A stretch of DNA of 24,657 nucleotides from a virus, in the IMG/VR virus record IMGVR_UViG_3300048672_000491, positions 1 through 24,657 of that record. The stretch is one strand, 5' to 3'. Shown here piece after piece: positions 7,129-23,457 of the stretch (the stretch's first letter is position 1; each line of letters opens with the position of its first letter). The notes below the pieces were generated by a model, which was not told the origin of the DNA, did no database searches, and was given only the letters and a program-made list of their open reading frames with translations. The position numbers were made by a program, and so were the translations under genes.

Positions 7129-7482
7129 ATGACAAATAATTCTCAGCCTCCAAATATGGTATCTATTTACCCAGATGATGCAATAGTGTCGTCTCAATAT
7201 CTAACGATAAACTCGGATGCGCAAATCATAGCGGTCACAGATACTAGTGCGCCGTCTAATGTTGTTGCCGAAACTACAAGCAGAGTTGTATTAATACCAA
7301 GCGTTGACTGTTGGGTAGCAATAGGCGCAGGGACAGTAATCGCCACAGCATCGGCCCCCTGTTTTAGACTTCCTGCTAATGTACCGTTTTACCCCATCAA
7401 AGTAACAGGTGGAGTTACTAAAATAGCGGCAATCAGAGCAGGGTCTACTTCTGGCACACTAAGCATAGTTGAGAGCGAATAA
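7129..7482 (+). CDS. Putative structural protein, 117 aa
   Basis: No named family. The product is rich in Ser, Thr, Val and Ala with alternating strands (VVAETTSRVVLIPSVDCWVAIG, then VTKIAAIRAGSTSG), typical of small phage decoration or fibre-associated beta proteins. GAGAG (7116-7120) precedes ATG 7129. It overlaps the LamG gene by TAATG, so the two probably work together on the virion surface. Confidence 0.6.
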   Translation: MTNNSQPPNMVSIYPDDAIVSSQYLTINSDAQIIAVTDTSAPSNVVAETTSRVVLIPSVDCWVAIGAGTVIATASAPCFRLPANVPFYPIKVTGGVTKIAAIRAGSTSGTLSIVESE

Positions 7483-11540: not shown

Positions 11541-11849
11541 ATGAAAAAGTTAATCGTTGTACTAGCCTTGATGGTTAGTTGTAATGCACAAGCCAATGAA
11601 AAAGACAATTTATGCGCAATGCTCACAACACATGCTGCACAGATTGTCGTCTATGAGCGTTATTGCGGAGTGCAGGGTTATATGCTTGGCAGAACAACGG
11701 AACGAATGACCGTAGTAGATTGTCCGAATCCAACAGAAGAAATGAGAAATGAAGCGTATAGACGTGAGCAGTTAAGCCTTGATGACTTGTTGCATGATAT
11801 GCCTAATTTTTGTAAATCAGCACTCGCCAAGGATGTTATTGGGTATTAA
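11541..11849 (+). CDS. Secreted (periplasmic) cargo protein, 102 aa
   Basis: The N-terminus MKKLIVVLALMVSCNAQA is a Sec signal peptide: KK, a hydrophobic core and an AQA cleavage site after residue 18. The Cys at 14 does not make a good lipobox. The mature 84 residues contain four cysteines (near 26, 42, 59 and 91), suggesting disulphides in the periplasm. No family is recognised. It lies between portal and head genes with its own promoter, the layout of a moron. Prophage morons of this kind often block superinfection or alter the host envelope, but that is only inference here. Confidence 0.75.
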   Translation: MKKLIVVLALMVSCNAQANEKDNLCAMLTTHAAQIVVYERYCGVQGYMLGRTTERMTVVDCPNPTEEMRNEAYRREQLSLDDLLHDMPNFCKSALAKDVIGY

Positions 11850-11866
11850 CGATAAGCATGAAATGG

Positions 11867-11960
11867 TAAAATAACAAAGGCTAGCGCGAGTCATGATCGT
11901 GTGAAAAAGGGCGGATTCTTTCCACCGCCCGCCCGCCCCATAAATGGAAAGCTTTGAGGA
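11867..11960 (+). ncRNA. Structured leader with loop complementary to the pre-SD segment
   Basis: An extended -10 TGGTAAAAT (11864-11872) would start RNA near 11879. The RNA can form CGCGA/TCGTG, then the strong stem GGGCGG (11909-11914) with CCGCCC (11925-11930). The 10-nt loop contains CTTTCCA (11918-11924), perfectly complementary to TGGAAAG (11945-11951) just before the AGGA ribosome site (11957-11960). A third small stem, GCTTT with AAAGC (11951-11965), holds GAGG in its loop. This could be a pseudoknot switch or the source of an antisense RNA for the gene at 11969. No known class is recognised. Confidence 0.5.
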
Positions 11961-11968
11961 AAGCAAAG

Positions 11969-12268
11969 ATGAGAGAAACACTAAAGCAGTTACAACACGA
12001 AGATGTTGTTTTGTTTGATAATAAAAAACAATTACAAGAATATATAAACCTTTCTGGAGACGATACTATTTTTCCTATTGAAATAAATGGAATATTCCCT
12101 CGAATACAGTCAAAGTTCTGGAGTTTTGAATGTAGCTTTAATAATGGCAGTCACTTCGACGTTAAACAAACAGCACTAACAAGATTGATCTCATGGAATG
12201 AATATAAACGTAGATTTGCGAATCATGAAAACGGAAAGGAAATTAATGGTCAGTTAATTACTGACTAA
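11969..12268 (+). CDS. Hypothetical protein, 99 aa, in head-operon cargo
   Basis: Start at ATG 11969, eight bases after AGGA; the ORF's TTG at 11954 lies inside the ribosome site and is unlikely. The product is soluble: a helical start (RETLKQLQHEDVVLFDNKKQLQEYI), a beta middle (IEINGIFPRIQSKFWSFECSF) and a charged end. I do not recognise the family. It is the second gene of the cargo block between portal and head genes, controlled by the structured leader and closed by a terminator, so it is probably not a virion gene. Confidence 0.65.
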   Translation: MRETLKQLQHEDVVLFDNKKQLQEYINLSGDDTIFPIEINGIFPRIQSKFWSFECSFNNGSHFDVKQTALTRLISWNEYKRRFANHENGKEINGQLITD

Positions 12269-12291
12269 GATAGCAACGCCTAATAAACAAT

Positions 12292-12315
12292 AGCCCTGCC
12301 AGTCGGGGCTTTTTT
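12292..12315 (+). terminator. Rho-independent terminator
   Basis: AGCCC (12292-12296) pairs with GGGCT (12306-12310) around a 9-nt loop, followed directly by six T. It closes the cargo block, separating it from the head genes, which have their own promoter just downstream. Confidence 0.8.
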
Positions 12316-12375
12316 ATGTCCGCAAGTAAAACAACTGTTTGAAACAAATGTTTTATTTTATTGGGGAATACGGTA

Positions 12376-12408
12376 TATAATCGCGCAAACCTTTGTTATG
12401 TTATAACA
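12376..12408 (+). promoter_or_regulatory. Promoter with downstream palindromic operator ahead of the head gene
   Basis: A consensus -10 TATAAT (12376-12381) is followed by CGCGCAAA, then the palindrome TGTTATG T TATAACA (12394-12408, one mismatch between arms), six bases before ATG 12415. The RNA would start near 12388, so the operator lies in the leader. No -35 close to consensus and no ribosome site are visible. The same two elements occur in the reverse order at 4988-5022. Confidence 0.6.
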
Positions 12409-12414
12409 TTACAC

Positions 12415-14160
12415 ATGATGCAAAAATTAGCAAAACCTGTCATTTCTAATCGTGGCGTAGCAATACGCTATCGAAAAGCTATTGACCGTGAAATACAGGC
12501 AATGCTGGATTCTTTGGAATATTGGTTACAAGCGGCATACCGAAAAGCACCTCCACTGATTGCGCAAGATGCAAGTCCAGTGCAAATCGTTAAAAAGATT
12601 TTCGCTCGGTTAGCTAAGTATTGGCTAGACCGCTTTAACACCAAAGCCGATGAAATCGCAAATTATCACGTTGGCAGAATGTTCCAAACATCGGATAAAT
12701 CACTACAACAATCTTTGAAAGATGCGGGCTGGGCTGTCGATTTTAAGATGACCAAAGAAATGAAGGACGCACTCAACGCAAGTATGGCGGAAAACGTGGG
12801 ATTGATTAAATCGATACCTGCTCAGCTATTGCCACAAGTTGAGGGTATCGTGATGCGGTCGTATAGCTCAGGGCGTGACCTATCAACGATGGTTGATGAC
12901 ATTAGAGCATTGCACCCAGTCTCACAAAGACGCGCCGCATTGATAGCACGCGATCAATCCAACAAAGCGAATGCTGTCGTTAATCGTACCCGCTGTTTAG
13001 AGCTTGGAATAACTGAAGCTAAATGGATGCACTCCAGCGCAGGAAAGAAACCACGCGCAAGCCACGTTAAAGCACATGGCACGGTGTTCGATATTGCTAG
13101 AGGTTGCAAGATTGATGGTGATTACATACAGCCAGGCGAACTTATTAATTGCTTGCCAGATTATTCACCAATTGAGTTCTTTCCAGACTGTAGGAAGTTT
13201 TTTAAGCGTAGTTTTACTGGTGAATTGACCAGACTTGTTACGGGCATGGGTTCGACTATCGAAGCGACTGGAAATCACCCCGTGCTTACGCAACGCGGAT
13301 GGATTGCTATTAAGGATGTTAATTTGGCTGATTATGTAGTCAAAATCAGAGACCAACAAATCAATCGACATGAATTTAACAACCAACAAAGTGTACCCAG
13401 CATTGGTAAGATATTCGAGGCGTTGTCTATAATATTCGGTATTGAGGTGATAGCTCCCGCTTCTATAGCTCAATTCCACGGCGACGCTACCAATAACGAA
13501 GTCGATATTATAACCGTGCAATGCTTTTTGCCAGATGAAATCAATATTATTGAGTTGCAACAATTCTTTAAATTCTTTTTCACCAGTGCCGATCATTTGC
13601 TCATAAGCGAGACCGAACTGGATACCATTAGCGCGTTTAATTTTTTCGTTAGCAGGTCTTGTAACGCCCCTGACAGCATCATTAGCAGCTTTACAACGTT
13701 TCTGTTTTTGGTCAAAAGGCATTTGAGCCATGCTGACGATGTTGGCAGCGGAGCTATTGCGCAACTCAACGCCCTCTTGTTTGAGTCGGTGTGTAATAAC
13801 ATTTCTAGCTACTTGGTATTTTTTGGCAAGGAACAGCACACTAAGTCCATCGATATATTCAGCAGCGATAATTTTGTTAGGAAGTTCTATTCTTGTTTTC
13901 TTTTTGCTTTTAAGCGGGATAATAAGCCCACGTTGTTTGATATAAGTGCTGATGACATTACGACCAAAACCAACAACGGCGGCGGCATCCTTGAGGGTGT
14001 ACCCATCGGTGAATATGAGCTTGACCGCGTTATCAATATCAGTAGTAGTGATTTTTCTGGACATGTTTATAATCTCGAGAATAAATTAAATTGGTATTCT
14101 GTAAACAATATTATAACACACAATTGCCGATGTACATCACGCGCCATTTTACCAATATGA
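12415..14160 (+). CDS. Mu gpF-like head morphogenesis protein, interrupted by an intein
   Basis: A minor head protein needed for procapsid assembly. The 581-residue precursor is 245 residues of N-extein, a 325-residue intein and 11 of C-extein. The N-extein has the gpF-like C-terminal region: RRAALIARDQSNKANA, KWMHSSAGKKPRASHVKAHG, then GCKIDGDYIQPGELIN. After splicing it would join to CRCTSRAILPI, restoring the family's PGE-x-INCRC motif, so the mature protein is 256 residues. Start ATG 12415 is preferred to TTG 12361, which precedes the -10 box; ATG 12418 is also possible. The stop overlaps the next start (ATGA), so ribosomes must cross the whole intein to couple to the next gene. Confidence 0.92.
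   Translation: MMQKLAKPVISNRGVAIRYRKAIDREIQAMLDSLEYWLQAAYRKAPPLIAQDASPVQIVKKIFARLAKYWLDRFNTKADEIANYHVGRMFQTSDKSLQQSLKDAGWAVDFKMTKEMKDALNASMAENVGLIKSIPAQLLPQVEGIVMRSYSSGRDLSTMVDDIRALHPVSQRRAALIARDQSNKANAVVNRTRCLELGITEAKWMHSSAGKKPRASHVKAHGTVFDIARGCKIDGDYIQPGELINCLPDYSPIEFFPDCRKFFKRSFTGELTRLVTGMGSTIEATGNHPVLTQRGWIAIKDVNLADYVVKIRDQQINRHEFNNQQSVPSIGKIFEALSIIFGIEVIAPASIAQFHGDATNNEVDIITVQCFLPDEINIIELQQFFKFFFTSADHLLISETELDTISAFNFFVSRSCNAPDSIISSFTTFLFLVKRHLSHADDVGSGAIAQLNALLFESVCNNISSYLVFFGKEQHTKSIDIFSSDNFVRKFYSCFLFAFKRDNKPTLFDISADDITTKTNNGGGILEGVPIGEYELDRVINISSSDFSGHVYNLENKLNWYSVNNIITHNCRCTSRAILPI
13165..14064 (-). CDS. Antisense Vsr/EDxHD-like putative homing endonuclease nested in the intein
   Basis: A 299-residue protein on the strand opposite the intein, in exact codon register (its residue n faces intein residue 306-n). 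Two helix-turn-helix-like repeats are visible: about 9-46 (TLKDAAAVVGFGRNVISTYI) and 63-99 (LSVLFLAKKYQVARNVITHRL). A nuclease core follows: GYNIDFVIGSVAVELSY with D188 and E197, H206, then YYRQRLEYLTNAGYTLLVVK (211-230), the layout of Vsr-like and EDxHD homing nucleases. The tail has RNKSGQF (275-281). Its ATG faces intein His305 (block F); its stop faces Ser6 (block A). The protein reads like a real one, unlike other antisense ORFs here. Function as the intein's homing enzyme is inference. Confidence 0.82.
   Translation of the reverse strand: MSRKITTTDIDNAVKLIFTDGYTLKDAAAVVGFGRNVISTYIKQRGLIIPLKSKKKTRIELPNKIIAAEYIDGLSVLFLAKKYQVARNVITHRLKQEGVELRNSSAANIVSMAQMPFDQKQKRCKAANDAVRGVTRPANEKIKRANGIQFGLAYEQMIGTGEKEFKELLQLNNIDFIWQKALHGYNIDFVIGSVAVELSYRSGSYHLNTEYYRQRLEYLTNAGYTLLVVKFMSIDLLVSDFDYIISQINILNSNPSALRKHGVISSRFDSRTHARNKSGQFTSKTTLKKLPTVWKELNW
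14110..14118 (-). promoter_or_regulatory. Putative minus-strand extended -10 promoter for the nested nuclease
   Basis: On the minus strand 14118 to 14110 reads TGTTATAAT, a perfect TGn plus TATAAT extended -10. RNA would start near 14103, about 39 bases before the nuclease ATG (14064). CGAGA lies ahead of that ATG at ribosome-site distance. No -35 close to consensus is seen. On the sense strand these bases encode the intein's last residues (I-I-T). Confidence 0.45.
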
Positions 14161-15380
14161 AACCAGAAACCTTTAACTTTGCATTAGACAAATCAGGACG
14201 CACGATTGATGCAGATGGACGTTTGCACGTTGCAAAATCTCACATCACGAAAGCCGCAATTAATCCGTACTACGGTAAAGAAATCCCGAACCATGATGAA
14301 CTCGGATTAGAACCAGACAAAATCTATCAACTTTTTCGTGATCCAGAAGAACTAAAAAAAGCAGCTTCAACATTCGCAAGATTGCCAATTCTCAGAAAGC
14401 ACATACCCGTGACTGTTGATGACCCACAACCTGATTTAGTTATCGGGGCGGTTGGTTCTGACGTGAGCTTTAACGCGCCTTATGTTGATGCTGACTTGGT
14501 GATATGGGACGCTGAAGCAATCGCGGGTATTGAGACCAAGGATGTACAGGAATTATCGTGCGGGTATCGATATGTGCCAGTGATGACAGCAGGTGAATAT
14601 CAAGGCAAACATTACGACGGCATCATGACAGAGATACGCGGCAATCACGTTGCCCTTGTTGAAGTTGGACGTGCAGGTAGTGACATAGTAGTAGGTGATG
14701 AAAACCCTTTTAAAACAGGAAAAACAATGAAAAAACGAGACAAAATTAAAAAGGTTTTGCTGGCTCAGGACGCGGACATCCCCGTTGCTGTGTTAGACAA
14801 AATACTTGATGACATCATCGGTGTTAAAGATGATGCTGTTGAAGATACCGAACACAACCCAGACCCCACAGAGCCAAACATTGGTGCAGTTGGCGATGGT
14901 TCACCAGCGGACAAAATCCGTGAATTGCTAGCTGGAAAAGTTGAAGCTGATATTATCGAGCAAATCTGCGCACTGGCTACACCTGAAGTTTCTGAGGACG
15001 AATGCCCAGATAAACAAGCCGAAGACGAAGACGACAAGGACACGCCGCCAATGAAAAAAGAAGAAGTTAAAGCGGCAATGGACGCAGCGATTAATGCGGG
15101 TATTGCTAAAGAACGAGCTAACATGAAAGCAGCAAACAAAGCGCGGTTAGATGTGCGTGCAGTGGTTGGCGATGTGTTGGCGATAGATTCTGCCGAAGAA
15201 ATCTATAGCTTTGCGCTTGACCAAATGGGTGTAAGTCACAAGGGCGTAAAAGAGCCAGCGGCATTAAAGGCAATCTTTGACGCGGCGAACATGGCACAAA
15301 CGGGTAAACCAGCGGTTATTGCGCAGGACAGCGCAGCGGCTAAACAGTTTCCAGATTTAAACAGATTCCAACGAGGTTAA
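14157..15380 (+). CDS. DUF2213 protein, probable head protease with scaffold-like tail, 407 aa
   Basis: Start at ATG 14157, overlapping the head gene's stop. The N-terminal 180 residues are DUF2213: a PETFNFALDKSGRTIDADGRL start, LRKHIPV (79-85), DVQELSCGYRYV (129-140) and GNHVALVEVGRAGSD (162-176). H82 and S134 in ELSCGY are placed like the His and Ser of prohead proteases (S78/U35 type), so a maturation protease is likely but not proved. From about 215 the protein is acidic and helical (KKEEVKAAMDAAINAGIAKERAN), like an internal scaffold. A protease-scaffold fusion just ahead of the capsid genes fits head assembly. Confidence 0.8.
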   Translation: MKPETFNFALDKSGRTIDADGRLHVAKSHITKAAINPYYGKEIPNHDELGLEPDKIYQLFRDPEELKKAASTFARLPILRKHIPVTVDDPQPDLVIGAVGSDVSFNAPYVDADLVIWDAEAIAGIETKDVQELSCGYRYVPVMTAGEYQGKHYDGIMTEIRGNHVALVEVGRAGSDIVVGDENPFKTGKTMKKRDKIKKVLLAQDADIPVAVLDKILDDIIGVKDDAVEDTEHNPDPTEPNIGAVGDGSPADKIRELLAGKVEADIIEQICALATPEVSEDECPDKQAEDEDDKDTPPMKKEEVKAAMDAAINAGIAKERANMKAANKARLDVRAVVGDVLAIDSAEEIYSFALDQMGVSHKGVKEPAALKAIFDAANMAQTGKPAVIAQDSAAAKQFPDLNRFQRG

Positions 15381-15384
15381 TAAG

Positions 15385-16509
15385 ATGGGATTTCAAACGC
15401 AAGTAAATTTACAGCAAGCTCCAGCGGTAGAAGGTGATTTTTCCTCAGCAAATCCCCGCGCGGTTGTCTTGTCTCCAGAAGCGGGTTTTGTTGCCGGATT
15501 TGATGGTGCAACTATTGGTCGTTTTGGCTGGATTGGCGTTGACGGCGTAACCGTTGAAAACGTGGGTATTGCTCCAGCAGCCCCGAACGGGTTTATCCAT
15601 CGTGAACAACAAGGCTTGATTACTCAATATTTGGGCGAAAGCTCTATGGTCATTCCGCAAGGATTACCCGTCATTTTGCACAATCAAGGCGATTTTTGGG
15701 TAAAGAATGCGGGTTCAGGTACTACAGCAATTGGCGAGAGTGTTTACGCTGATTACGGTACAGGTCAAGCGGCTAACGCGATTCAATCAGGCGCAAGTGT
15801 TACCGCGTCAATGGGTTCGACGAATACGGCGGCTTTAGGTGCGACTTTTACGGCATCCGCTGATACTGATGCAACGCGGTTGGTTGTTACAGCGGTTACA
15901 GGCTTAATCAGTGTTGGTGATTTTGTCAGTGGTACTGGTATTACGGCGGGTACGACCATCACTAGCCAAGTGAGCGGTACTACAGGTGGCGCAGGGACTT
16001 ATCAATTAAGCGCAAGCAACACCGCAAGCACCGCAACTGTTACCGCGTTTGGTAAAGTCGTAAAAACCACATCAACCACTGGCTTAATTAGTATTGGTGA
16101 AACTATTAGTGGCGGCGCAGGTTTTCCAGTTGGCGCGACCGTAGTTAGCCAAACAAGTGGTACAACAGGCGGTGCTGGTGTTTATGTACTTAGCGCTGCG
16201 GGTTCTGCTTATACGGCTTCGACTACAGGCGTGACCACTTTTGGTAACGTGCTAAACGTAACGGCTATTGGTTCAGGCGAGTTAGAAGTCGGTGATCCAG
16301 TTAGCGGTTCAGGCGTTACCGCAAATTCCGCTATTGCTTCACAAGTTAGTGGTACGGTTGGCGGCATCGGTGTTTATACACTGACATTGCCAGCCACGGC
16401 TTACGCGGCATCTACAACTGTTACAGCGGTTGGCGGGGTAGTTACATCTTGGAAATTCGCTTCTGTTGCTGCAACTGGCGAATTAGCAAAAATCACATCA
16501 TGGGGTTAA
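15385..16509 (+). CDS. Head decoration/structural cement-like protein with three repeated modules, 374 aa
   Basis: The first 130 residues (PAVEGDFSSANPRAVVLSPE, GATIGRFGWIG, then VILHNQGDFWVKNAGSGTTAIGE) match small capsid decoration proteins that sit just before the major capsid gene. From about 166 to 348 come three copies of a 55-60-residue module with the pattern G-x-(I/L)-x-V/I-G-x-x-(V/I)-S-G, then T-x-I-x-S-Q-x-S-G-T-x-G-G-x-G-x-Y-x-L. GAGG (15373-15376) is the ribosome site. The modules would project from the head surface. The decoration call is inferred from position and pattern. Confidence 0.8.
   Translation: MGFQTQVNLQQAPAVEGDFSSANPRAVVLSPEAGFVAGFDGATIGRFGWIGVDGVTVENVGIAPAAPNGFIHREQQGLITQYLGESSMVIPQGLPVILHNQGDFWVKNAGSGTTAIGESVYADYGTGQAANAIQSGASVTASMGSTNTAALGATFTASADTDATRLVVTAVTGLISVGDFVSGTGITAGTTITSQVSGTTGGAGTYQLSASNTASTATVTAFGKVVKTTSTTGLISIGETISGGAGFPVGATVVSQTSGTTGGAGVYVLSAAGSAYTASTTGVTTFGNVLNVTAIGSGELEVGDPVSGSGVTANSAIASQVSGTVGGIGVYTLTLPATAYAASTTVTAVGGVVTSWKFASVAATGELAKITSWG
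15880..16428 (+). repeat. Three tandem copies of a Gly/Ser/Thr-rich surface module
   Basis: Copies at residues about 166-222, 228-285 and 289-348 of the decoration protein. They share SGTTGGAGTYQLSAS, SGTTGGAGVYVLSAA and SGTVGGIGVYTLTLP. DNA identity between copies is only partial, so the duplications are not recent. A fourth, diverged copy is in the neck protein (19321-19473). Confidence 0.75.
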
Positions 16510-17555
16510 TGATGAATCCACAATTTAGAAATCTAGCAGATAGAGCTGGCATTCATTTCATGGGTGTACAACCAGACTTTCAGCAAAAAGGCGTAATGTT
16601 ACGTCACGACCACAAAGGCGGTTTCGCGTGTGACGCACAGCCTACTTTGATTACACAATCGAACAGTGGCATCCCCGCGTTTTTATCAACCTACATTGAC
16701 CCTGCATTAATTGAAGTGCTTGTCGCACCGATGAAAGCGGCTGAAATCGTAGGCAGTGAAACCAAAAAAGGCGATTGGACAACCAAAACGGCAATGTTTC
16801 CTATCGTTGAATCAACTGGTGAAACAACCGCTTATGGTGATTACAGTGAAAATGGCAATGCAGGTGCAAACGTCAACTTTCCGCAACGCCAATCTTTCCA
16901 CTACCAAGTCATGACCCAATGGGGTGAATTGGAATTGGAAAACGCAGGTTTAGCGCGTATTGACTGGGCGAACCGCTTGAATATTGCCAGTGCTTTAACA
17001 CTCAGCAAGTACCAAAACAAAACCTACTTTTTTGGTGTTGAGAACCTTGAAAACTACGGTCTATTAAACGACCCTGCTTTAAGTGCGGCGATTACCCCGA
17101 CTACTAAAACAGCGGGCGGTACAGGTTGGGAAAATGCAACGGCAGCCGAAGTTATCAAAGACATCAATAAGCTGTTTAAACAGGTGCAAACGCAAGCCAA
17201 AGGTGTAGTTGATAGAAGCTCAAAATTAACCTTGGCAATGTCTCCATTGAGTGACGCGACAGGTTTAACCAAAGTGTCTGATTTCAATGTATCAGTGGGC
17301 GACCAGATTAAAAAACTGTATCCAAACCTGACGGTTGAAGTCGCGCCTGAATACACAACAGCAGCGGGTGAATTTGTACAGATGATTGCAGAAGCGGGCG
17401 ACGGTCAACAAACAGCGACTACTGCGTTCACTGAAAAGTTACGCGCTCATGCAATTGTGGTTGGTGCATCTTCTTTTAAACAGAAGAAATCGCAAGGCAC
17501 ATGGGGAAGTATCATATTTCGCCCGTGGGCAATTTCGTCAATGTTGGGAATTTAG
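16509..17555 (+). CDS. Major capsid protein, DUF2184 type, 348 aa
   Basis: Main shell protein, HK97 fold. ATG 16509 gives a TAATG overlap with the decoration gene; ATG 16500 and 16512 are also in frame. Residues about 50-120 (TQSNSGIPAFLSTYIDPALIEV, then AAEIVGSETKKGDWTTKTAMFPIVE) and QSFHYQVMTQWGELELENAG are the DUF2184 N-terminal and E-loop region. The ending (TWGSIIFRPWAISSMLGI) is typical. Its place after DUF2213 and a decoration protein and before connectors is standard. Complete. Confidence 0.92.
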   Translation: MMNPQFRNLADRAGIHFMGVQPDFQQKGVMLRHDHKGGFACDAQPTLITQSNSGIPAFLSTYIDPALIEVLVAPMKAAEIVGSETKKGDWTTKTAMFPIVESTGETTAYGDYSENGNAGANVNFPQRQSFHYQVMTQWGELELENAGLARIDWANRLNIASALTLSKYQNKTYFFGVENLENYGLLNDPALSAAITPTTKTAGGTGWENATAAEVIKDINKLFKQVQTQAKGVVDRSSKLTLAMSPLSDATGLTKVSDFNVSVGDQIKKLYPNLTVEVAPEYTTAAGEFVQMIAEAGDGQQTATTAFTEKLRAHAIVVGASSFKQKKSQGTWGSIIFRPWAISSMLGI

Positions 17556-17605
17556 TCCGTTCTTGATTGGATGGATAACATATTTAACTTAACTGGATAT
17601 ATAAC

Positions 17606-17917
17606 ATGGCAAAAACTGTAACGATTGGCTGTAAATTGCCGAACGGCATTGTGTTAGAAATTGGTGAACAGCAGGTAGAAATCGATGGACTGAATAAATC
17701 TGTTATCATCGGCGCAACACATGTAACAACCGTTGTTGATGCGGATTTTTGGGCGGCTTGGAAAGCTAAAAACGCTACGTTTTCGGCATTAAAAAGCGGT
17801 GCAATCTTTGAAGCATCTAATGCGAATGAAGCGGCGGCAATTGTAAAAGATACGGGTAAAACTGGGCTTGAGCCTATGCCGCAAAAAACCAAAGATATTG
17901 AAAAGGCGGTTGCGTAA
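17606..17917 (+). CDS. Conserved phage protein after the capsid gene, 103 aa
   Basis: No named function that I know. The N-terminal half is beta-rich (TVTIGCKLPNGIVLEIGEQQVEIDG), then ADFWAAWKAKNATFSALKSGAIFE, a pattern I have seen in small proteins between capsid and connector genes of phages with this layout. The C-terminus is helical and acidic. It starts after a 50-base gap and ends directly against the DUF4054 gene (TAA, ATG). A minor head role is likely from its position. Confidence 0.65.
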   Translation: MAKTVTIGCKLPNGIVLEIGEQQVEIDGLNKSVIIGATHVTTVVDADFWAAWKAKNATFSALKSGAIFEASNANEAAAIVKDTGKTGLEPMPQKTKDIEKAVA

Positions 17918-18313
17918 ATGACAGCCGTTGTTTTTTCTCCAAGTGCTTTTAAAGTCAGATACCCTGAGTTCTCAGCGGTTGATGATGTACGGTTATCAGC
18001 ATTTTTTGATGAAGCGACGCTGTATTTATCTAACACTGACAAACCAGTGAAAGACGTTGTTAAACGAGCAATGCTTTTTAATATGCTAGTAGCGCACATT
18101 GCAACGCTTGGCGGTGTATTGGCTAGCAATAGCCCTGCACCTGTCGGGCGTGTCGCTTCGGCTGGGCAAGGTTCTGTAAACGTATCGACTGAGTATATGC
18201 AACCAGGTTCTTATGCGTGGTTTGTACAAACTCAGTATGGCGCGGCTTTCTGGCAGGCTACGGTGAAATATCGTAGCTTTCGTTATTACCCATGCCCTAC
18301 GGTGGTTACATGA
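17918..18313 (+). CDS. DUF4054 head-tail connector protein, 131 aa
   Basis: The start (FSPSAFKVRYPEFSAVDDVRL, then FFDEATLYLSN) and the helix VKRAMLFNMLVAHIATLGG, followed by PVGRVASAGQGSVNVSTEY and YGAAFWQATVKYRSFRYYP, are the DUF4054 signature. The family is an adaptor between portal and neck, similar in role to HK97 gp6. ATGA overlap with the next gene. Complete. Confidence 0.88.
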   Translation: MTAVVFSPSAFKVRYPEFSAVDDVRLSAFFDEATLYLSNTDKPVKDVVKRAMLFNMLVAHIATLGGVLASNSPAPVGRVASAGQGSVNVSTEYMQPGSYAWFVQTQYGAAFWQATVKYRSFRYYPCPTVVT

Positions 18314-18735
18314 GCGGTCTATCAGCACGGTTAGAAGAGATCATGAAACGGCTAGAAAGCAAAACGCTAGTTGTGGGATTCATGAGTAATGCGACCTATC
18401 CAGACGGTACGAGCGTTGCAGTCGTAGCTGCTAATAATGAGTACGGCAATCAGAAACAGGTTGCCCGTCCTTTTTTTCGGCAAATGGTAGCAAAAGAATC
18501 ACCCACATGGGCTGGTAAGATTGGCAATGCTTTGATAGCCTCGAATTATGATTCTGACAGAGCATTAGGCATGGTCGGTGAAGACGTGAAAGGCGCGTTA
18601 CAGGAAAGCATCACAGAATTTATGCAACCAGAATTAATGCCGTCAACGATAGCACAAAAGGGTTTTAGTAAACCGCTGATTGATACAGGTCACATGCTCA
18701 ACTCCGTAGCCTACGAGATCCGCGAACATGATTGA
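18310..18735 (+). CDS. HK97 gp10-like tail completion protein, 141 aa
   Basis: ATG 18310 is chosen for the ATGA overlap; ATG 18292 is possible. KTLVVGFMSNATYPDGTSVA, NNEYGNQKQVARPFFRQMV, then a long helix region and GFSKPLIDTGHMLNSVAYEI are the pattern of gp10-like neck proteins: start strand, P-x-R-P-F-F-R helix and the L-I-D-T-G-x-M ending. The protein sits at the head-tail junction. It overlaps the next gene by 8 bases. Confidence 0.82.
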   Translation: MSGLSARLEEIMKRLESKTLVVGFMSNATYPDGTSVAVVAANNEYGNQKQVARPFFRQMVAKESPTWAGKIGNALIASNYDSDRALGMVGEDVKGALQESITEFMQPELMPSTIAQKGFSKPLIDTGHMLNSVAYEIREHD

Positions 18736-19099
18736 CTTGTTTAACGTAGCGCGTAGCCAAGCATCTGTCATTAATGCCCCTGTGCTGGTAACAATAAAAC
18801 GGTCTACAGGTTACACAACTAATGGCGATGGTTCACGCGTACCAAGTTATACGACTATCACAGGCATAAAAGCCGATGTACAGCCAATGACTAATCAAGA
18901 CTTGCATCAAGTCGAGGGTTTGAATATGGGGGGCGAAAAGTCTGCTATGTATTTAAGCGGTGAATTGTTGGGCGTGTTGCGTGCAGATCAAACAGGTGGC
19001 GATATTGTTGAGTTTCCAGACGGTAAAAAGTATCTGGTCGTTTTGGTGCTTGAGCAATGGAATAATTGGGTAAAAGTCGCAGTGGTTAGGCAATTATGA
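18728..19099 (+). CDS. Head-closure (stopper) protein, 123 aa
   Basis: A beta-barrel-like protein: VLVTIKRSTGYTTNGDGSRVP, then ITGIKADVQPMTNQDLHQVEG, YLSGELLGVLRADQTGGDIVEF and DGKKYLVVLVLEQWNNWVKV. This matches the small head-completion proteins encoded between gp10-like and neck-terminator genes. It should close the portal channel until the tail binds. Identification comes from pattern and position. Confidence 0.72.
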   Translation: MIDLFNVARSQASVINAPVLVTIKRSTGYTTNGDGSRVPSYTTITGIKADVQPMTNQDLHQVEGLNMGGEKSAMYLSGELLGVLRADQTGGDIVEFPDGKKYLVVLVLEQWNNWVKVAVVRQL

Positions 19100-19797
19100 T
19101 ACCTTCAATCGATTTACTAGAATCTGATGTGTTTGCCGTATTGCGTGCGTTTCTGTTGTCATGCGTGGTCAATGCCGAAGTAGTACGAGGACAAGATAAT
19201 AGAGTACCTGAGCCGCTAGTGAATGACTTTATTGTTATGACCCCGATACTCAGGGAACGCATACACAACAACCTGCATGATTATGTAGACTCGTTGTTTT
19301 TCGGCTCTATTACCGATACCACACTAACGATCACTGAAACATTATTAGGCAGTCTGTTCGTAGGGGTGAATATTTACGGTGTTGATGTACTACCAGATAC
19401 TATTATTACGGCGGTTTTAGGTGGTGGACAATACACGGTTTCACGGTCTCAAACGGTTTCTAGTCGGACAATAGCGGGAGGCGTTAAAACCATGCTCAAC
19501 CCTGTGAAAATGACTATTCAGTGTGACGTTCACGGTGTGCGTAGTTGCGACAATGCGCACATCATTACAACTGCTTTTCGTGATGTTTACGCCTGCGATA
19601 AGTTTGCAGAATCGAATAAACACGTTTACCCGCTGTTTTCCAGTGATCCTAAACAAATGCCTTTCAATAATTCAGAACAGCAAGTCGAAGAACGCTGGGT
19701 TGTGGATTTGACCGTACAAGTCAATCCGATAGTAACCATTTCTCAACAGTTCTTTGACGATTTAACAATAACCGCGATTAATGCGCAAAAGGTTTAA
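19096..19797 (+). CDS. Neck terminator protein, LIC_12616 type, with inserted surface module, 233 aa
   Basis: The N-terminal (IDLLESDVFAVLRAFL) and C-terminal parts (MTIQCDVHGVRSCDNAHIITTAFRD, then EQQVEERWVVDLTVQVNP) match the LIC_12616 or gp12-like neck terminator family, which joins the tail tube to the neck. Between them, residues about 76-126 (TLTITETLLGSLFVGVNIYG, then GGGQYTVSRSQTVSS) are the same type of module that occurs three times in the decoration protein. The insert probably sits in a loop on the outside. ATGA overlap upstream; three bases to the sheath gene. Confidence 0.8.
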   Translation: MIPSIDLLESDVFAVLRAFLLSCVVNAEVVRGQDNRVPEPLVNDFIVMTPILRERIHNNLHDYVDSLFFGSITDTTLTITETLLGSLFVGVNIYGVDVLPDTIITAVLGGGQYTVSRSQTVSSRTIAGGVKTMLNPVKMTIQCDVHGVRSCDNAHIITTAFRDVYACDKFAESNKHVYPLFSSDPKQMPFNNSEQQVEERWVVDLTVQVNPIVTISQQFFDDLTITAINAQKV

Positions 19798-19800
19798 CCT

Positions 19801-21330
19801 ATGACAATTTCGACACAATTTTTGGTTTCCACAGTGCCGGGCGTGGTCTCTGGCATGGGTCAATCAATCCAGTTCAACGGGATGATTTTGACCGATGATA
19901 CCAGCATTCCCATTGGCTCTATTCAACCATTCACCAACCTAGCAGCAGTGCTGGCTTATTTTGGTTCGGCATCCGCTGAATACGATATGGCTCAGTATTA
20001 TTTCAAAGGCTTCAATGGCTCAACCCAAAAGCCTGGTATGCTTTATTTCTTCCAATTCAACACATCGGCTGTTGGTGCTTATTTGCGTGGTGGTGCTTAC
20101 ACTGGCACATTAGACCAGTTAAAAGCGATCACTACAGGCACACTTGCGCTTGATATTGACGGTACTACTCAATCAGTATCAGCTATCGATTTATCAGCAG
20201 CTACATCATTCAGTAATGCAGCAGCGTTAATTGATACGGCAGCGGGCTTGAAATTCAACTGTAGCTATGACACACAATTGCAATCGTTTGTGATTAGCTC
20301 ACCGACGACAGGTGCAACCTCAACTATCGACTTTCCTGCTACTTCTGCATTAGCCTCATTGATAAATGTGGTACAGGCAGACGGTGCGGTATTGTCACAA
20401 GGTGCGGCTATCGCTGACGTTGCTACCTACATGACAGCTTTAGATGCTGCTAACCGTAACTGGGTTTCTTTCTCGACCACGTTTGAACCTGATTTAGCGA
20501 CTAAATTAGAATTTGCTCAATGGGTGAATGGTAGCGAAAACTATACCTATGTTGCATGGGATACCGAAGAAGCATTGCCACTGTCTAGCGACACAACCAG
20601 CTTTGCTTATCTCATTAACGGCGTAACAACTGTTGATGCAAACGGCAACACTACCGTAGTTGTTGCTCCGACATACGACTATGACAACACGATAGTTGTG
20701 TACAACACAGCGGCAATCGCAGCGGCATTGCAGGGCTTTATGGCATCGGTCAATCTTAACCAACCTCAAGGCTGGGTGGATTATGCCTACCTACAACAAT
20801 CTGGTTTAGCGTCTAGCGTGTCGAATCGTTCAACCGCCGAAATTCTGGAAAGCAAGCGCACCTACTTTTTAGGTGATTTCGCTTCACCAACCACAGCTTA
20901 TAAAATGGGTTGGGCGGGTGCAATTTCTGGCATATTCGACTGGCTAAATGATTTTCTGGGGAATCGATACATACGCGCTCAGCTTGAACAGGCATGGATG
21001 GATTTCAGAACTCAACGCAAAAACCTACCATTTAACGATGCGTCATACAGTGCGATCAAACAAGTGTTTGCCAATAATGTGTTAGAACCAGCTATCGTAT
21101 TAGGTGCGGTCAATTCTGGTGTCATTTTGGATGAAATTCAACAAATCGCCATTAATACCCTAGCTAATGTTGACGACGCTGCAAAGCTCATTGAGCAAAA
21201 CGGCTACTACATTAAAATCATTCCAGCGACAGTTGCACAGCGTAACGCGCGGGTACTTGATGTGAATGTCTGGTACTGCTCGGGGGGAAGCATTTCACGC
21301 GTCAATATTTCCGTGTTCTTGGTTCAATAA
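19801..21330 (+). CDS. DUF3383 tail sheath-like protein, 509 aa
   Basis: A long protein of the DUF3383 family, thought to be the contractile tail sheath in phages of this type. Recognised from the start (PGVVSGMGQSIQFNGMILTDD), AVLAYFGSASAEYDMAQYYFKG, the middle KRTYFLGDFASPTTAYKMGW, and the ending region FNDASYSAIKQVFANNVLEPA with YYIKIIPATVAQRNARVLDV. Its place just before the tube protein agrees. A contractile tail is therefore inferred; no baseplate genes are in the window to confirm it. Confidence 0.87.
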   Translation: MTISTQFLVSTVPGVVSGMGQSIQFNGMILTDDTSIPIGSIQPFTNLAAVLAYFGSASAEYDMAQYYFKGFNGSTQKPGMLYFFQFNTSAVGAYLRGGAYTGTLDQLKAITTGTLALDIDGTTQSVSAIDLSAATSFSNAAALIDTAAGLKFNCSYDTQLQSFVISSPTTGATSTIDFPATSALASLINVVQADGAVLSQGAAIADVATYMTALDAANRNWVSFSTTFEPDLATKLEFAQWVNGSENYTYVAWDTEEALPLSSDTTSFAYLINGVTTVDANGNTTVVVAPTYDYDNTIVVYNTAAIAAALQGFMASVNLNQPQGWVDYAYLQQSGLASSVSNRSTAEILESKRTYFLGDFASPTTAYKMGWAGAISGIFDWLNDFLGNRYIRAQLEQAWMDFRTQRKNLPFNDASYSAIKQVFANNVLEPAIVLGAVNSGVILDEIQQIAINTLANVDDAAKLIEQNGYYIKIIPATVAQRNARVLDVNVWYCSGGSISRVNISVFLVQ

Positions 21331-21343
21331 GGAGTAAATAGTC

Positions 21344-21796
21344 ATGGCAGTATTATCAGAATCAAATGCTTTAACAGCTACCAATGCAACCGCCGTTATT
21401 TTTGTTGCGGCAATCGCTCCCGCTGGTCATACCATACAAGGCGAATTTTTAGACAACGCTTATGGTATCGGTGACGTGACAAACAAAGAGCTAAAAATGA
21501 CGCTGCAAAGTATCATCAAAGGTGGTCATATACCACAAATGAAAGAGGTCACAATCACGCTGTTACCTAATACCCCATCATGGCGTTTTTTCACTGACTG
21601 GTATCAAGCCGAAGAAGCGGGTCGTGAAGTGTTGGAATGTCAAAGTTTAATTATTACTTTGCCGTCAATCGGTCAAGTCGTGACTTACACTAACGGTTTC
21701 TTGACCACTGCAAAAGTCATGCCAGACGTTAAAAAAATCCTACAAGAGGGCAGCTTTAAGCTCACCTTTGGTAAAGTAGTTACAGCGTCTTTGTAG
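21344..21796 (+). CDS. Tail tube protein (DUF3277-like), 150 aa
   Basis: Inner tube subunit through which DNA passes. GGAG (21331-21334) precedes ATG 21344. The protein is beta-rich with NALTATNATAVIFVAAIAPA, KMTLQSIIKGGHIPQMKEVTI, SWRFFTDWYQAEEAGREV and a final FKLTFGKVVTA strand, close to other tube proteins encoded after DUF3383 sheaths. The family number is from memory. In such operons the next gene is usually the tail chaperone, but here it is the C4-antirepressor block. Confidence 0.82.
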   Translation: MAVLSESNALTATNATAVIFVAAIAPAGHTIQGEFLDNAYGIGDVTNKELKMTLQSIIKGGHIPQMKEVTITLLPNTPSWRFFTDWYQAEEAGREVLECQSLIITLPSIGQVVTYTNGFLTTAKVMPDVKKILQEGSFKLTFGKVVTASL

Positions 21797-21802
21797 TAAA
21801 AT
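21797..21802 (+). promoter_or_regulatory. -10 box of the C4-like RNA
   Basis: TAAAAT (21797-21802) ends six bases before 21809, where the first stem of the folded RNA begins, so the transcript would start exactly with the structure. No good -35 is visible; the box overlaps the end of the tail tube gene. Confidence 0.4.
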
Positions 21803-21808
21803 AGTTAT

Positions 21809-21863
21809 GCGGGCAGGTGTTGCAACACCGAACGGCTTACCACGTTCAGCCCGCGTCCTTTTT
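21809..21863 (+). ncRNA. c4: C4-like antisense RNA of the antirepressor
   Basis: A three-way junction: outer stem GCGGGC (21809-21814) with GCCCGC (21849-21854); inner hairpin GGTGTTGCAACACC (21816-21829); inner hairpin GAACG/CGTTC (21830-21847) with loop GCTTACCA. GCTTACC in the loop is perfectly complementary to GGTAAGC (21865-21871) just upstream of the antirepressor start. The outer stem is followed by CTTTTT, a probable terminator. The C4 RNAs of phages P1 and P7 repress ant in this way: they come from the same operon and block the ribosome site. The class call is by structure, context and memory. Confidence 0.75.
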
Positions 21864-21884
21864 CGGTAAGCTCACAGGGTAAAG

Positions 21885-22523
21885 ATGATGAAAGATTTAA
21901 TTGATGTAAAAAATGTTGTTATTGGTGCGGGTTCTGTTCAGGCGGTTTCAGCTCGTGAGCTTTATCTTGATTTAGGTCATGACTACAAAAAGTGGAACAG
22001 GTGGCATAAGCGTAATATTGGCAATAACGAGTGGTTTATTGAAGGGAGAGATTGGGTTAAGGTAGCCACAATTGGTGACCTTTCAAGAACTGGTCAGACT
22101 CCAGATGACTTTGCTATTACTCTTGAATTTGCAAAACACATTGCAATGCAATCAAGAACATTAAAAGGTCATGAGTACAGAAACTATTTAATTCGCTGTG
22201 AAAAGTCATTAGCCAAGTTATCAGCCGATGATGAACGAATGCTGAAGATTACCCGCATTAATCCACAATGCCTAAAAGCAATCACTGGCAGCCGTAATAA
22301 TAACGAAGTTGGCAAATGCTACGAAGCGTTAGAGTTGGCGGGGATTATGGAAAGCGTCATCGAGTGGAAAAGTTTTAAGCGGTGGCGATTTACTGCTGAC
22401 GGCTTGAACTACTGCAACGGCTACCATAACGACATACCCAGATTTAAAGACGAAAGCCACGACAAAGTTATGGCAATGATTGAACAAGTTAAGCAAGATA
22501 ATCCGCAACTAAGTATTTTTTGA
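21885..22523 (+). CDS. antA: AntA/AntB-family antirepressor, 212 aa
   Basis: Residues about 15-95 are the AntA/AntB domain: VQAVSARELYLDLGHDYKKW, then NNEWFIEGRDW, FAITLEFAKHIAMQS and GHEYRNYLIRCEKS. AntA proteins interfere with phage repressors and favour lytic growth. The C-terminal 120 residues contain a probable winged-helix part (KCYEALELAGIMESV, then WRFTADGLNY). Start at ATG 21885 or 21888; AGGG at 21876-21879 is the ribosome site, within the zone targeted by the C4-like RNA. Unusually, the gene is inside the tail operon. I see no phage repressor gene in the window for it to act on. Confidence 0.85.
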   Translation: MMKDLIDVKNVVIGAGSVQAVSARELYLDLGHDYKKWNRWHKRNIGNNEWFIEGRDWVKVATIGDLSRTGQTPDDFAITLEFAKHIAMQSRTLKGHEYRNYLIRCEKSLAKLSADDERMLKITRINPQCLKAITGSRNNNEVGKCYEALELAGIMESVIEWKSFKRWRFTADGLNYCNGYHNDIPRFKDESHDKVMAMIEQVKQDNPQLSIF

Positions 22524-22573
22524 GCATAAGCCACTCCCATAGCGACTAAACGCAAGTGAACCGCTGACGGCTA

Positions 22574-22612
22574 GGGTACTGGTTAGGTCAGTACCCGAAC
22601 TTTTAACCTAAC
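22574..22612 (+). promoter_or_regulatory. Hairpin/pseudoknot leader of the gene at 22629
   Basis: GGGTACTG (22574-22581) pairs perfectly with CAGTACCC (22589-22596). The 7-nt loop GTTAGGT (22582-22588) is entirely complementary to ACCTAAC (22606-22612), so an H-type pseudoknot could form just ahead of the ribosome site (AAAGAG, about 22615-22620). The stem is followed by GAACTTTT, so it may also be a weak terminator for the antirepressor. No promoter is evident in the gap 22524-22573. Confidence 0.5.
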
Positions 22613-22628
22613 TAAAAGAGATTATGAA

Positions 22629-22835
22629 ATGTCAATTTTTCACATTATAAAACAAAGTAGAAAGTACGAAGGGAGCGGTTATTGTGGGGCGGCTAGTAAT
22701 CACAATTTATTAGAGTTCGACTCTTTAGATGATGCAATCAATATGATTGATAAATTACAAACCATAAATAAAGTTGGTTGGCTAATATTTAACGCTATTA
22801 CTAAAGAGCAAGTCTATCCAGTGGGTAACGTGTAA
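22629..22835 (+). CDS. Hypothetical protein, 68 aa, in tail-operon cargo
   Basis: I do not recognise the family. The protein is soluble and small: IFHIIKQSRKYEGSGYCG, then a helix (SLDDAINMIDKLQTI) and a short beta end (VGWLIFNAITKEQVYPVG). This resembles small domains that read a substrate or partner with a beta sheet and one helix. Its stop overlaps the tail chaperone start (TAATG), so cargo and tail genes are translationally joined here. Confidence 0.6.
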   Translation: MSIFHIIKQSRKYEGSGYCGAASNHNLLEFDSLDDAINMIDKLQTINKVGWLIFNAITKEQVYPVGNV

Positions 22836-23242
22836 TGCCAAAAGAAGTTATTAACTGGTCAGGCGCAAGCGGTAGAGACGCTGGCAAGACCTACGTTATC
22901 AGCGAGACAGATCCATTCTATTCATTTCAATGGGGACTTAGAGCCGCAAAGGCTTTAAACGGTTTATTGCCAGAACACTATGCGCGATCCATCGACGGCA
23001 TTGCAATGTGGGCGGCAGAGTCTGGCATTGATAAAGTCTTGGAAGCAAATCCAGATGACCTGTTACCTTTGCTAGATGAGCTTTTTTACAAATGCGTCAA
23101 GTATCAATCACCGCAAAATGAAAAGGTTACACTAGACATCACGCCAGACTACAACGCTGGCAGAATTGAAGAACGTGGAACGATAGCAGAGCTGTACTTG
23201 GAAATATTTAAGGTGCATACAAATTTTTACGCGGCAGAGTAG
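22835..23242 (+). CDS. Tail assembly chaperone, short form (G-like), 135 aa
   Basis: ASGRDAGKTYVISETDPFYSFQWGLRAAKAL (about 10-41, here in two parts: GRDAGKTYVISE and WGLRAAKAL) is the start of the common phage tail chaperone family; helices follow with IDKVLEANPDDLLPLLDELF. It coats the tape measure protein during tail assembly. Like lambda gpG, it can be extended by frameshifting, giving a second product (see 23221-23227). It precedes the tape measure gene, as expected. Confidence 0.82.
   Translation: MPKEVINWSGASGRDAGKTYVISETDPFYSFQWGLRAAKALNGLLPEHYARSIDGIAMWAAESGIDKVLEANPDDLLPLLDELFYKCVKYQSPQNEKVTLDITPDYNAGRIEERGTIAELYLEIFKVHTNFYAAE
23221..23227 (+). other. -1 programmed frameshift site A AAT TTT
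   Basis: The in-frame heptamer A AAT TTT (23221-23227) fits X XXY YYZ with AAA and TTT. Slipping back one base leads to TTA CGC and so on in the downstream frame, which is open from 23212 to 23457 and has no ATG of its own. The zero frame stops at 23240-23242, 13 bases after the site. The fusion would be 131 plus 76, or 207 residues. Confidence 0.78.
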
Positions 23243-23457
23243 CGTTTCCTGCGTTGCGTTACCCTGCCAACACAGACGCACCAAAGCCTTACGCAGAATG
23301 TACAAACATACCGCCCATGATAGCCGCAATAGTTAGTAAAGGCATGGCAACACTCAAGGATATTCGAGACTACTACGGTATGGGTGATATATGGGATATT
23401 TGGGAAGTGCTAGCCGTGACCAATTACAATGAATACGTAGCCAACGCGAGAGATTAA
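23227..23457 (+). CDS. Tail assembly chaperone extension (T-like part, DUF6889-like), reached by -1 frameshift
   Basis: The frame is open from 23212 and is entered at 23227 by slipping. A TTG at 23254 could start it separately but has no ribosome site. The 76 residues contain IPPMIAAIVSKGMATLKDIRDYYG and a helix with WEVLAVTNYNEY, the small helical domain I know from second tail-chaperone ORFs (DUF6889-like). In lambda the extended form binds the tape measure and tube protein. The next gene starts three bases after the stop. Confidence 0.78.
   Translation, partial: LRGRVAFPALRYPANTDAPKPYAECTNIPPMIAAIVSKGMATLKDIRDYYGMGDIWDIWEVLAVTNYNEYVANARD

Follow-up and report, generated by a model that had tools for sequence, protein, structure and literature searches.

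Putative C4-like leader RNAs upstream of an antirepressor gene and other cargo genes in a group of related phages

Gene content of the window

The stretch of DNA analyzed here (the window, 24,657 bases) is a virus record which encodes a terminase, a portal-like protein, a MuF head protein, a tail sheath protein, a tail assembly chaperone and an antirepressor. Given the terminase, portal-like, MuF, sheath and tail chaperone genes, the window was therefore assigned to a contractile-tail phage. Searches of phage and plasmid DNA with the window gave no result, as did a search of genome contigs with its sheath. Phages sharing modules with the window were read in pieces, where L015 corresponds to G002, L116 to G006, L191 to G008 and L002 to G003.

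Hairpins with loop-complementary targets

The sequence-only reading had described three hairpins, each with a loop complementary over 7 nt to a segment ahead of a start codon, and all three were present as claimed: loop CTTTCCA with target TGGAAAG at 11945 (element 1), loop GCTTACC with target GGTAAGC at 21865 (element 2) and loop GTTAGGT with target ACCTAAC at 22606 (element 3). The window was scanned for hairpins with a 7-nt match within 60 nt. A stem of at least 6 returned two plus-strand loci, namely elements 1 and 3, and none on the minus strand, while 40 shuffles scanned under this rule averaged 0.8 loci per strand, the maximum being 3. When the stem was set to at least 5, the three elements were returned together with two more plus-strand loci (15177 and 22076) and one minus-strand locus; such 7-nt matches therefore also occur elsewhere in the window. 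Adding an SD and a 40-codon ORF to the rule left exactly the three elements, all on the plus strand. The same combination of hairpin, SD and ORF, applied irrespective of coding to 80 portal-related loci, produced 25 matches in 1.29 Mb (both strands), or approximately 0.96 per window length.

An interleaved-helix statistic was equalled by shuffles in 21 of 300 cases for element 1, 1 of 300 for element 2 and 13 of 300 for element 3. In this shuffling control, which had been proposed as a way to refute the claim, the matches were only moderately above chance within the window (combined p 0.0016 for the three elements), a result which held well for element 2 and was marginal for element 1. Before relatives were considered, element 2 was clear, element 3 suggestive and element 1 marginal.

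Element 2 and the AntA gene

Element 2 (21807-21856, plus strand, as are all features of the three elements) was predicted to fold as a C4-like RNA in which an outer stem of 8 bp encloses hairpin A with a tetraloop (21816-21829) and hairpin B (21830-21847) with the loop GCTTACCA at 21835-21842; in the fold of the RNA 21807-21856 the second hairpin carries the loop GCUUACCA. The fold of 21800-21855 was more stable than those of all 200 shuffles. A candidate -10 box, TAAAAT, was read by eye at 21797-21802, and no full sigma-70 promoter was found in 21650-22700. The target GGTAAGC, identified by complementarity scan at 21865-21871, starts at nt 9 past the RNA and ends 13 nt 5' of the start codon of an AntA-type antirepressor gene (21885-22523, 212 aa; Pfam AntA E 5.8e-15, PHROG anti-repressor E 3.5e-18). 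A second complementary site of 5 nt, GGTAA, lies beside this start codon at 21878-21882.

C4-type RNAs are guards of antirepressors, and the middle element had been said to look like one. The C4 RNA of P1, taken from its annotated record and folded likewise, is 77 nt long and comprises an outer stem, a tetraloop hairpin, a hairpin with the b' loop and then a'. Its a2 target starts at nt 4 past the RNA and its b2 target stops 10 nt short of the icd start codon. Like C4 of P1 and P7 (RF01695), element 2 has an outer stem around a tetraloop hairpin and an antisense-loop hairpin, with an antirepressor gene 3' on the same strand; like P1 C4 it has one target shortly past the RNA and one near the RBS, and its 7-nt match makes the loop complementary to the RBS region of the AntA gene. 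Unlike C4, which has separate antisense segments a' and b', element 2 uses a single loop for both sites. The Rfam C4 model gave no match at gathering, none up to E 5 in 21700-22700 and none up to E 10 in seven records. The resemblance thus stood in part order, RBS complementarity and the antirepressor gene, and failed in the Rfam model match and the separate a' and b' segments; judged by the Rfam model, element 2 would lie outside RF01695 despite being like C4 in build. With respect to the other two elements, the two-hairpin arrangement with an antisense loop was found in element 1 under an outer stem of 3 bp and not found in element 3, and neither is followed by an antirepressor gene.

Element 1

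The predicted fold of element 1 (11879-11933) consists of two hairpins under a 3-bp outer stem. A candidate -10 box, again TAAAAT and again identified by eye, lies at 11867-11872; a sigma-70 scan which included the -35 box returned no promoter in 11700-12000. Hairpin B (11909-11930) has the loop segment CTTTCCA at 11918-11924, complementary to the target TGGAAAG at 11945-11951 and to a second site of 6 nt, GGAAAG, positioned over the SD at 11958-11963. The 99-aa gene which follows (11969-12268) has no profile assignment, with no Pfam match over the cut-off and no PHROG, NCBIfam or PADLOC match, and no relatives of it were found among viral contigs and phages. The region 11850-11940 folded equally well in 86 of 200 shuffles, so its stability is unexceptional, and the leader had a p of 0.055 in the comparison of 95 leaders described below. 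As a matter of judgement, we rate the chance that element 1 is of the same C4-like kind as element 2 as slightly better than even.

C4-like leaders in related phages

A promoter motif applied with no complementarity rule gave 21 matches, behind which five C4-like leaders were found outside the window. Two precede GIY-YIG genes (Pfam GIY-YIG; NCBIfam group I intron endonuclease, E 6.9e-20 and 2.3e-20), two precede Rha-family genes and one precedes a 62-aa orphan gene. Three of the five had first surfaced in a scan which required complementarity; all five are also in the complementarity-free motif list. A broader descriptor produced many matches in coding sequence, so it was replaced by stricter ones. 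In four of the outside leaders, as in elements 1 and 2, a single loop matches both a site 7-12 nt past the RNA and a site near the start codon, the latter match being 5 nt in length, or 6 nt in element 1. The fifth, in L002, is longer and has two matches at the target. Leaders of the window type measure 50-57 nt (79 in L002) versus the 77 nt of C4 and, unlike C4, they also precede genes which do not encode antirepressors. The earlier proposal that one control logic is reused on cargo genes therefore stood for the C4-like leaders before AntA, Rha, GIY-YIG and orphan genes and did not extend to element 3, as discussed below.

One of the GIY-YIG genes with a C4-like leader (L176, 7618-8220, minus strand) is encoded against the late-gene direction of its record piece, as expected for an inserted mobile gene. 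The leaders in L176, L175, L199 and L204 have in common a GTTATAATGTAAC-like sequence around the -10 box which is partly an inverted repeat; from its sequence, this repeat is perhaps also an operator. A second type of leader, in which a stem and CCCGTG are followed by another stem, CACGGG and a T run, was observed before Rha, KilA-N and other genes (L199, 9315-9417, plus strand; upstream of L206, 17146-17775, minus strand; also L201 and L205, minus strand). These leaders look like attenuators, in which pairing of CCCGTG with CACGGG would form a terminator.

Co-divergence of loops and targets

Nine loops were paired in all combinations with nine downstream segments, taken from elements 1-3, the five outside leaders and the L191 copy of element 3. 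The loops were picked by hand from folds, and the three window loops had been preselected in the sequence-only reading for their matches. The longest runs of the own pairs were 7, 7, 7, 6, 5, 6, 6, 7 and, in the L191 copy, 4 nt, with a mean of 6.11 nt compared to 3.76 nt for swapped pairs (permutation p 1e-5, nine leaders). Duplex energies of own versus swapped pairs gave p 2e-5 for the nine leaders. The five outside leaders alone had a permutation p of 0.008, which is the floor for five. When the segments were cut down to the 20 nt directly upstream of the start codon, p was 0.0004 for the nine leaders, a value inflated by the main target of element 2 falling inside this stretch, and 0.058 for the five outside leaders. 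Joint change of loop and target, which had been named as the sign to look for in relatives, was thus observed as co-divergence between C4-like leaders, where own pairs outperformed swapped ones.

Interleaved helices in eight leaders from the motif list had a combined p of 1.6e-6; these comprised five C4-like leaders, one element 3 copy (L116) and two attenuator-like leaders, and the best interleaved helix was often not the named loop/target pair (for example, in part in the two GIY-YIG leaders, and in L002). The eight were drawn from the 21 motif matches; G002a+8487, one of the 21, was not among them, and the other 12 were left out by eye for lying in coding sequence, for lack of an ORF at a fitting distance, for a short leader or as a duplicate at a unit already used. 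Simple ORF rules applied to the window and related phages defined 95 leaders. Among the ten containing known units, three had p<=0.05 and the median was 0.11, compared to six of 85 and a median of 0.82 for the others; the tube-chaperone leader of the L191 phage is one of these six. A descriptor combining promoter, stem and match gave 7 matches in 0.41 Mb of strand from the phage group, of which 5 are named leaders, versus an expectation of 1.1 from shuffles (9 in 3.28 Mb). On 170 other loci it gave 11 matches versus 7 in one shuffle of each. This descriptor misses elements 1 and 3 and the L002 leader.

Element 3 at the tail chaperone position

Element 3 has as its 5' anchor a 15-mer, GAGCATAAGCCACTC (22522-22536), which is identical in L015, L116 and L191 and different in L014. 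It is followed by the hairpin with loop GTTAGGT (22574-22596) and by a second predicted hairpin (22600-22618), the loop of which (22606-22612) is the target ACCTAAC; CTTTTAACCTAACTAA in this hairpin is identical in four of five phages. Downstream lie a 68-aa gene (22629-22835) matching phrog_23075, a family without assigned function, and the tail assembly chaperone gene (22835-23242; phrog_1932, E 1.9e-13). In L014 and L015 the 68-aa gene is absent and element 3 stands immediately 5' of the tail assembly chaperone gene; by comparison with these two, the insertion point of the 68-aa gene of the window is the chaperone start. In L116 the tube-position gene and the gene after it flank element 3, and neither shows similarity to the genes of the window. 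A fifth copy, located in L191 by means of the 15-mer, precedes a small ORF amid other tail genes. Element 3 had been proposed to guard a cargo gene; the copies in L014, L015 and L116 are directly before the tail chaperone gene or its replacement, and four of the five phages place the element between the tube gene and the chaperone-position gene. It is therefore not a cargo-gene element, and this assignment was rejected. The leader is not universal, as the tube and chaperone genes of L016 abut and have none between them.

The hairpin was fully paired in all five sequences, and compensatory stem changes were observed across the five phages: counting from the loop, pairs three, four and five have changed on both sides, and there is one G-U pair. 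The loop is GTTAGGT in three of the five phages, and three of the five keep the 7-nt loop/target match. In L015 one change disrupts a loop/target pair, and the L191 copy has a different loop and no target, the longest run being 4 nt. Compensatory change of loop and target, which had been proposed as the check in relatives, was accordingly not found for element 3, the match being broken or absent in two of four relatives. The hairpin of element 3 is real but lacks the hallmark of the C4 logic, a loop and target that co-vary. Kissing of the two hairpins in cis was rejected by reasoning, because a linker of approximately 3 nt is unable to span stacked helices.

Searches for further copies gave the stem in three of 64 viral stretches matching the element 3 pattern, one of them new (L116), while the other 61 had 0-2 stem pairs. 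The 15-mer anchor occurred in 11 stretches, three with element 3 and eight without, as judged by eye. In genome contigs the pattern had two matches, both in Firmicutes and both with the hairpin missing. For the 68-aa gene no relatives were found in viral contigs, while a search of phages gave 39 distant records; a search with the chaperone alignment returned only two already known contigs. In the phage of L191 a distinct C4-like leader occupies the gap between tube and chaperone genes (L204, minus strand, before position 7309), the place where L116 has element 3. Its outer stem is 9 bp long, and CGTCTA is matched by TAGACG (p 0.015); the chaperone-position genes of these two phages are related (E 1e-21).

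Proposed mode of action

On this evidence we think it fairly probable that element 2 is a C4-like leader RNA and element 1 probably another, that related phages reuse the same layout and that element 3 is a separate, conserved leader. By analogy with C4, transcription from after the -10-like box would produce a compact RNA in which an outer stem encloses two hairpins. The 3' hairpin would pair through its loop, chiefly with the target starting 7-12 nt past the RNA and less strongly with the SD region, and this pairing would prevent ribosomes from reaching the cargo gene. Such an RNA could act in trans like P1 C4; in cis the pairing would amount to a pseudoknot. Related phages have this layout too, with different loops and targets, ahead of Rha-family genes, GIY-YIG endonuclease genes and an orphan gene. 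The most likely outcome, again by analogy, is that C4-like leaders prevent translation of the cargo for as long as their promoter is active, for instance in the lysogen. In element 3, a pseudoknot between loop and target could cover the SD region and thereby tune translation.

The sar RNA of P22 is transcribed from the opposite strand, unlike the window RNAs, which lie upstream of the gene and on the same strand. As phage RNAs blocking translation of an antirepressor, the proposed leaders would resemble sar as it is described in a recent review (PMC12197685). The same review has P1 C4 acting on the ant mRNA in trans, and transcription, processing and direction of effect are here modelled on C4 from this source and the P1 annotation. 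C4 antisense RNA is listed for Proteobacteria and phages in an extract of Weinberg 2010 (PMC2864571). In an excerpt on IsrK of Gifsy-1 (PMC4825925), a structured RNA upstream of, and on the same strand as, an anti-repressor-like gene pairs in cis and in trans, and in trans activates translation via an upstream ORF; activation in trans of the IsrK kind may, by analogy, also apply to the leaders. The CI RNA of satellite phage P4, as presented in that excerpt, is a further likeness in that an antisense RNA pairs near its own gene.

It is also possible, at somewhat less than an even chance, that the leaders act exclusively in cis, with an H-type pseudoknot hiding the SD on the same mRNA and no separate RNA or trans action. 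Loop and target are on one transcript, the target beginning 7-12 nt past the end of the RNA, and element 3 retains one loop/target pair across several phages, as would be expected of a fixed fold in cis; the part order and separate outer stem, however, are as in P1 C4, which the review describes as acting in trans on the ant mRNA (PMC12197685). Rather unlikely in our view is that element 2 alone is regulatory and that the matches of elements 1 and 3 are due to chance, the hairpin of element 3 serving, for example, the stability of the tube-chaperone mRNA. This would accord with the 0.8 such loci per strand in shuffles, the 21 of 300 shuffles equalling element 1, the lack of loop/target co-variation in element 3 and the L191 copy without target, but the 7-nt match of element 3 is kept in three of five phages, including L116 with its dissimilar tube and chaperone-position genes, and the loop of element 1 has two sites, one of them over the SD. 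Transcription attenuation, in which loop/target pairing would end transcription by the premature termination proposed for P4 CI RNA, has a precedent in the CCCGTG/CACGGG leaders with T runs before Rha and KilA-N genes of related phages but is very improbable for elements 1-3, which have no plus-strand terminator-like site and no T run after their targets.

Extending the reading of C4-like leaders beyond the window, a device for silencing antirepressors appears to be a reusable lock on unrelated accessory genes. More specifically, and with a confidence that stays below evens, we suggest a modular RNA lock in apparently temperate phages, in which a promoter and a C4-like RNA with a private loop/target pair would be placed on genes silent in the prophage. 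Its targets would be antirepressors, homing endonucleases and orphan genes, with a variant form on the tail assembly chaperone; the pairs would have co-diverged so that none cross-reacts within a phage, a suggestion of the same tentative weight. Among the papers listed by the literature searches, none dealt with C4-like leaders before homing endonuclease or tail chaperone genes, and a compact form on endonuclease and orphan genes was likewise not encountered there. If true, silencing of homing endonucleases and inserted genes in this manner would explain how cargo is tolerated in the lysogen, would provide a sequence-only route to finding cargo genes and would make available a naturally occurring collection of RNA switches insulated from one another.

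Other features of the window

Three further observations concern the proteins encoded in the window. The MuF head gene (12361-14160, plus strand) matched the Pfam intein-splicing model slightly below the cut-off, and within it an antisense 299-aa ORF (13165-14064, minus strand) has a weak DUF559 match, with TGTTATAAT at 14110-14118 (minus strand) 45 nt 5' of its ATG; the gene perhaps contains an intein with its endonuclease on the opposite strand. In the region 22835-23457 the ORF after the chaperone matches longer tail chaperone profiles over their C-terminal portion, hinting at a programmed frameshift. Between the AntA protein encoded in the window and the Rha-family protein of L002 the C-terminal domains (window 22209-22520 and L002 2998-3309) are 89% identical, and the N-terminal domains are unrelated.
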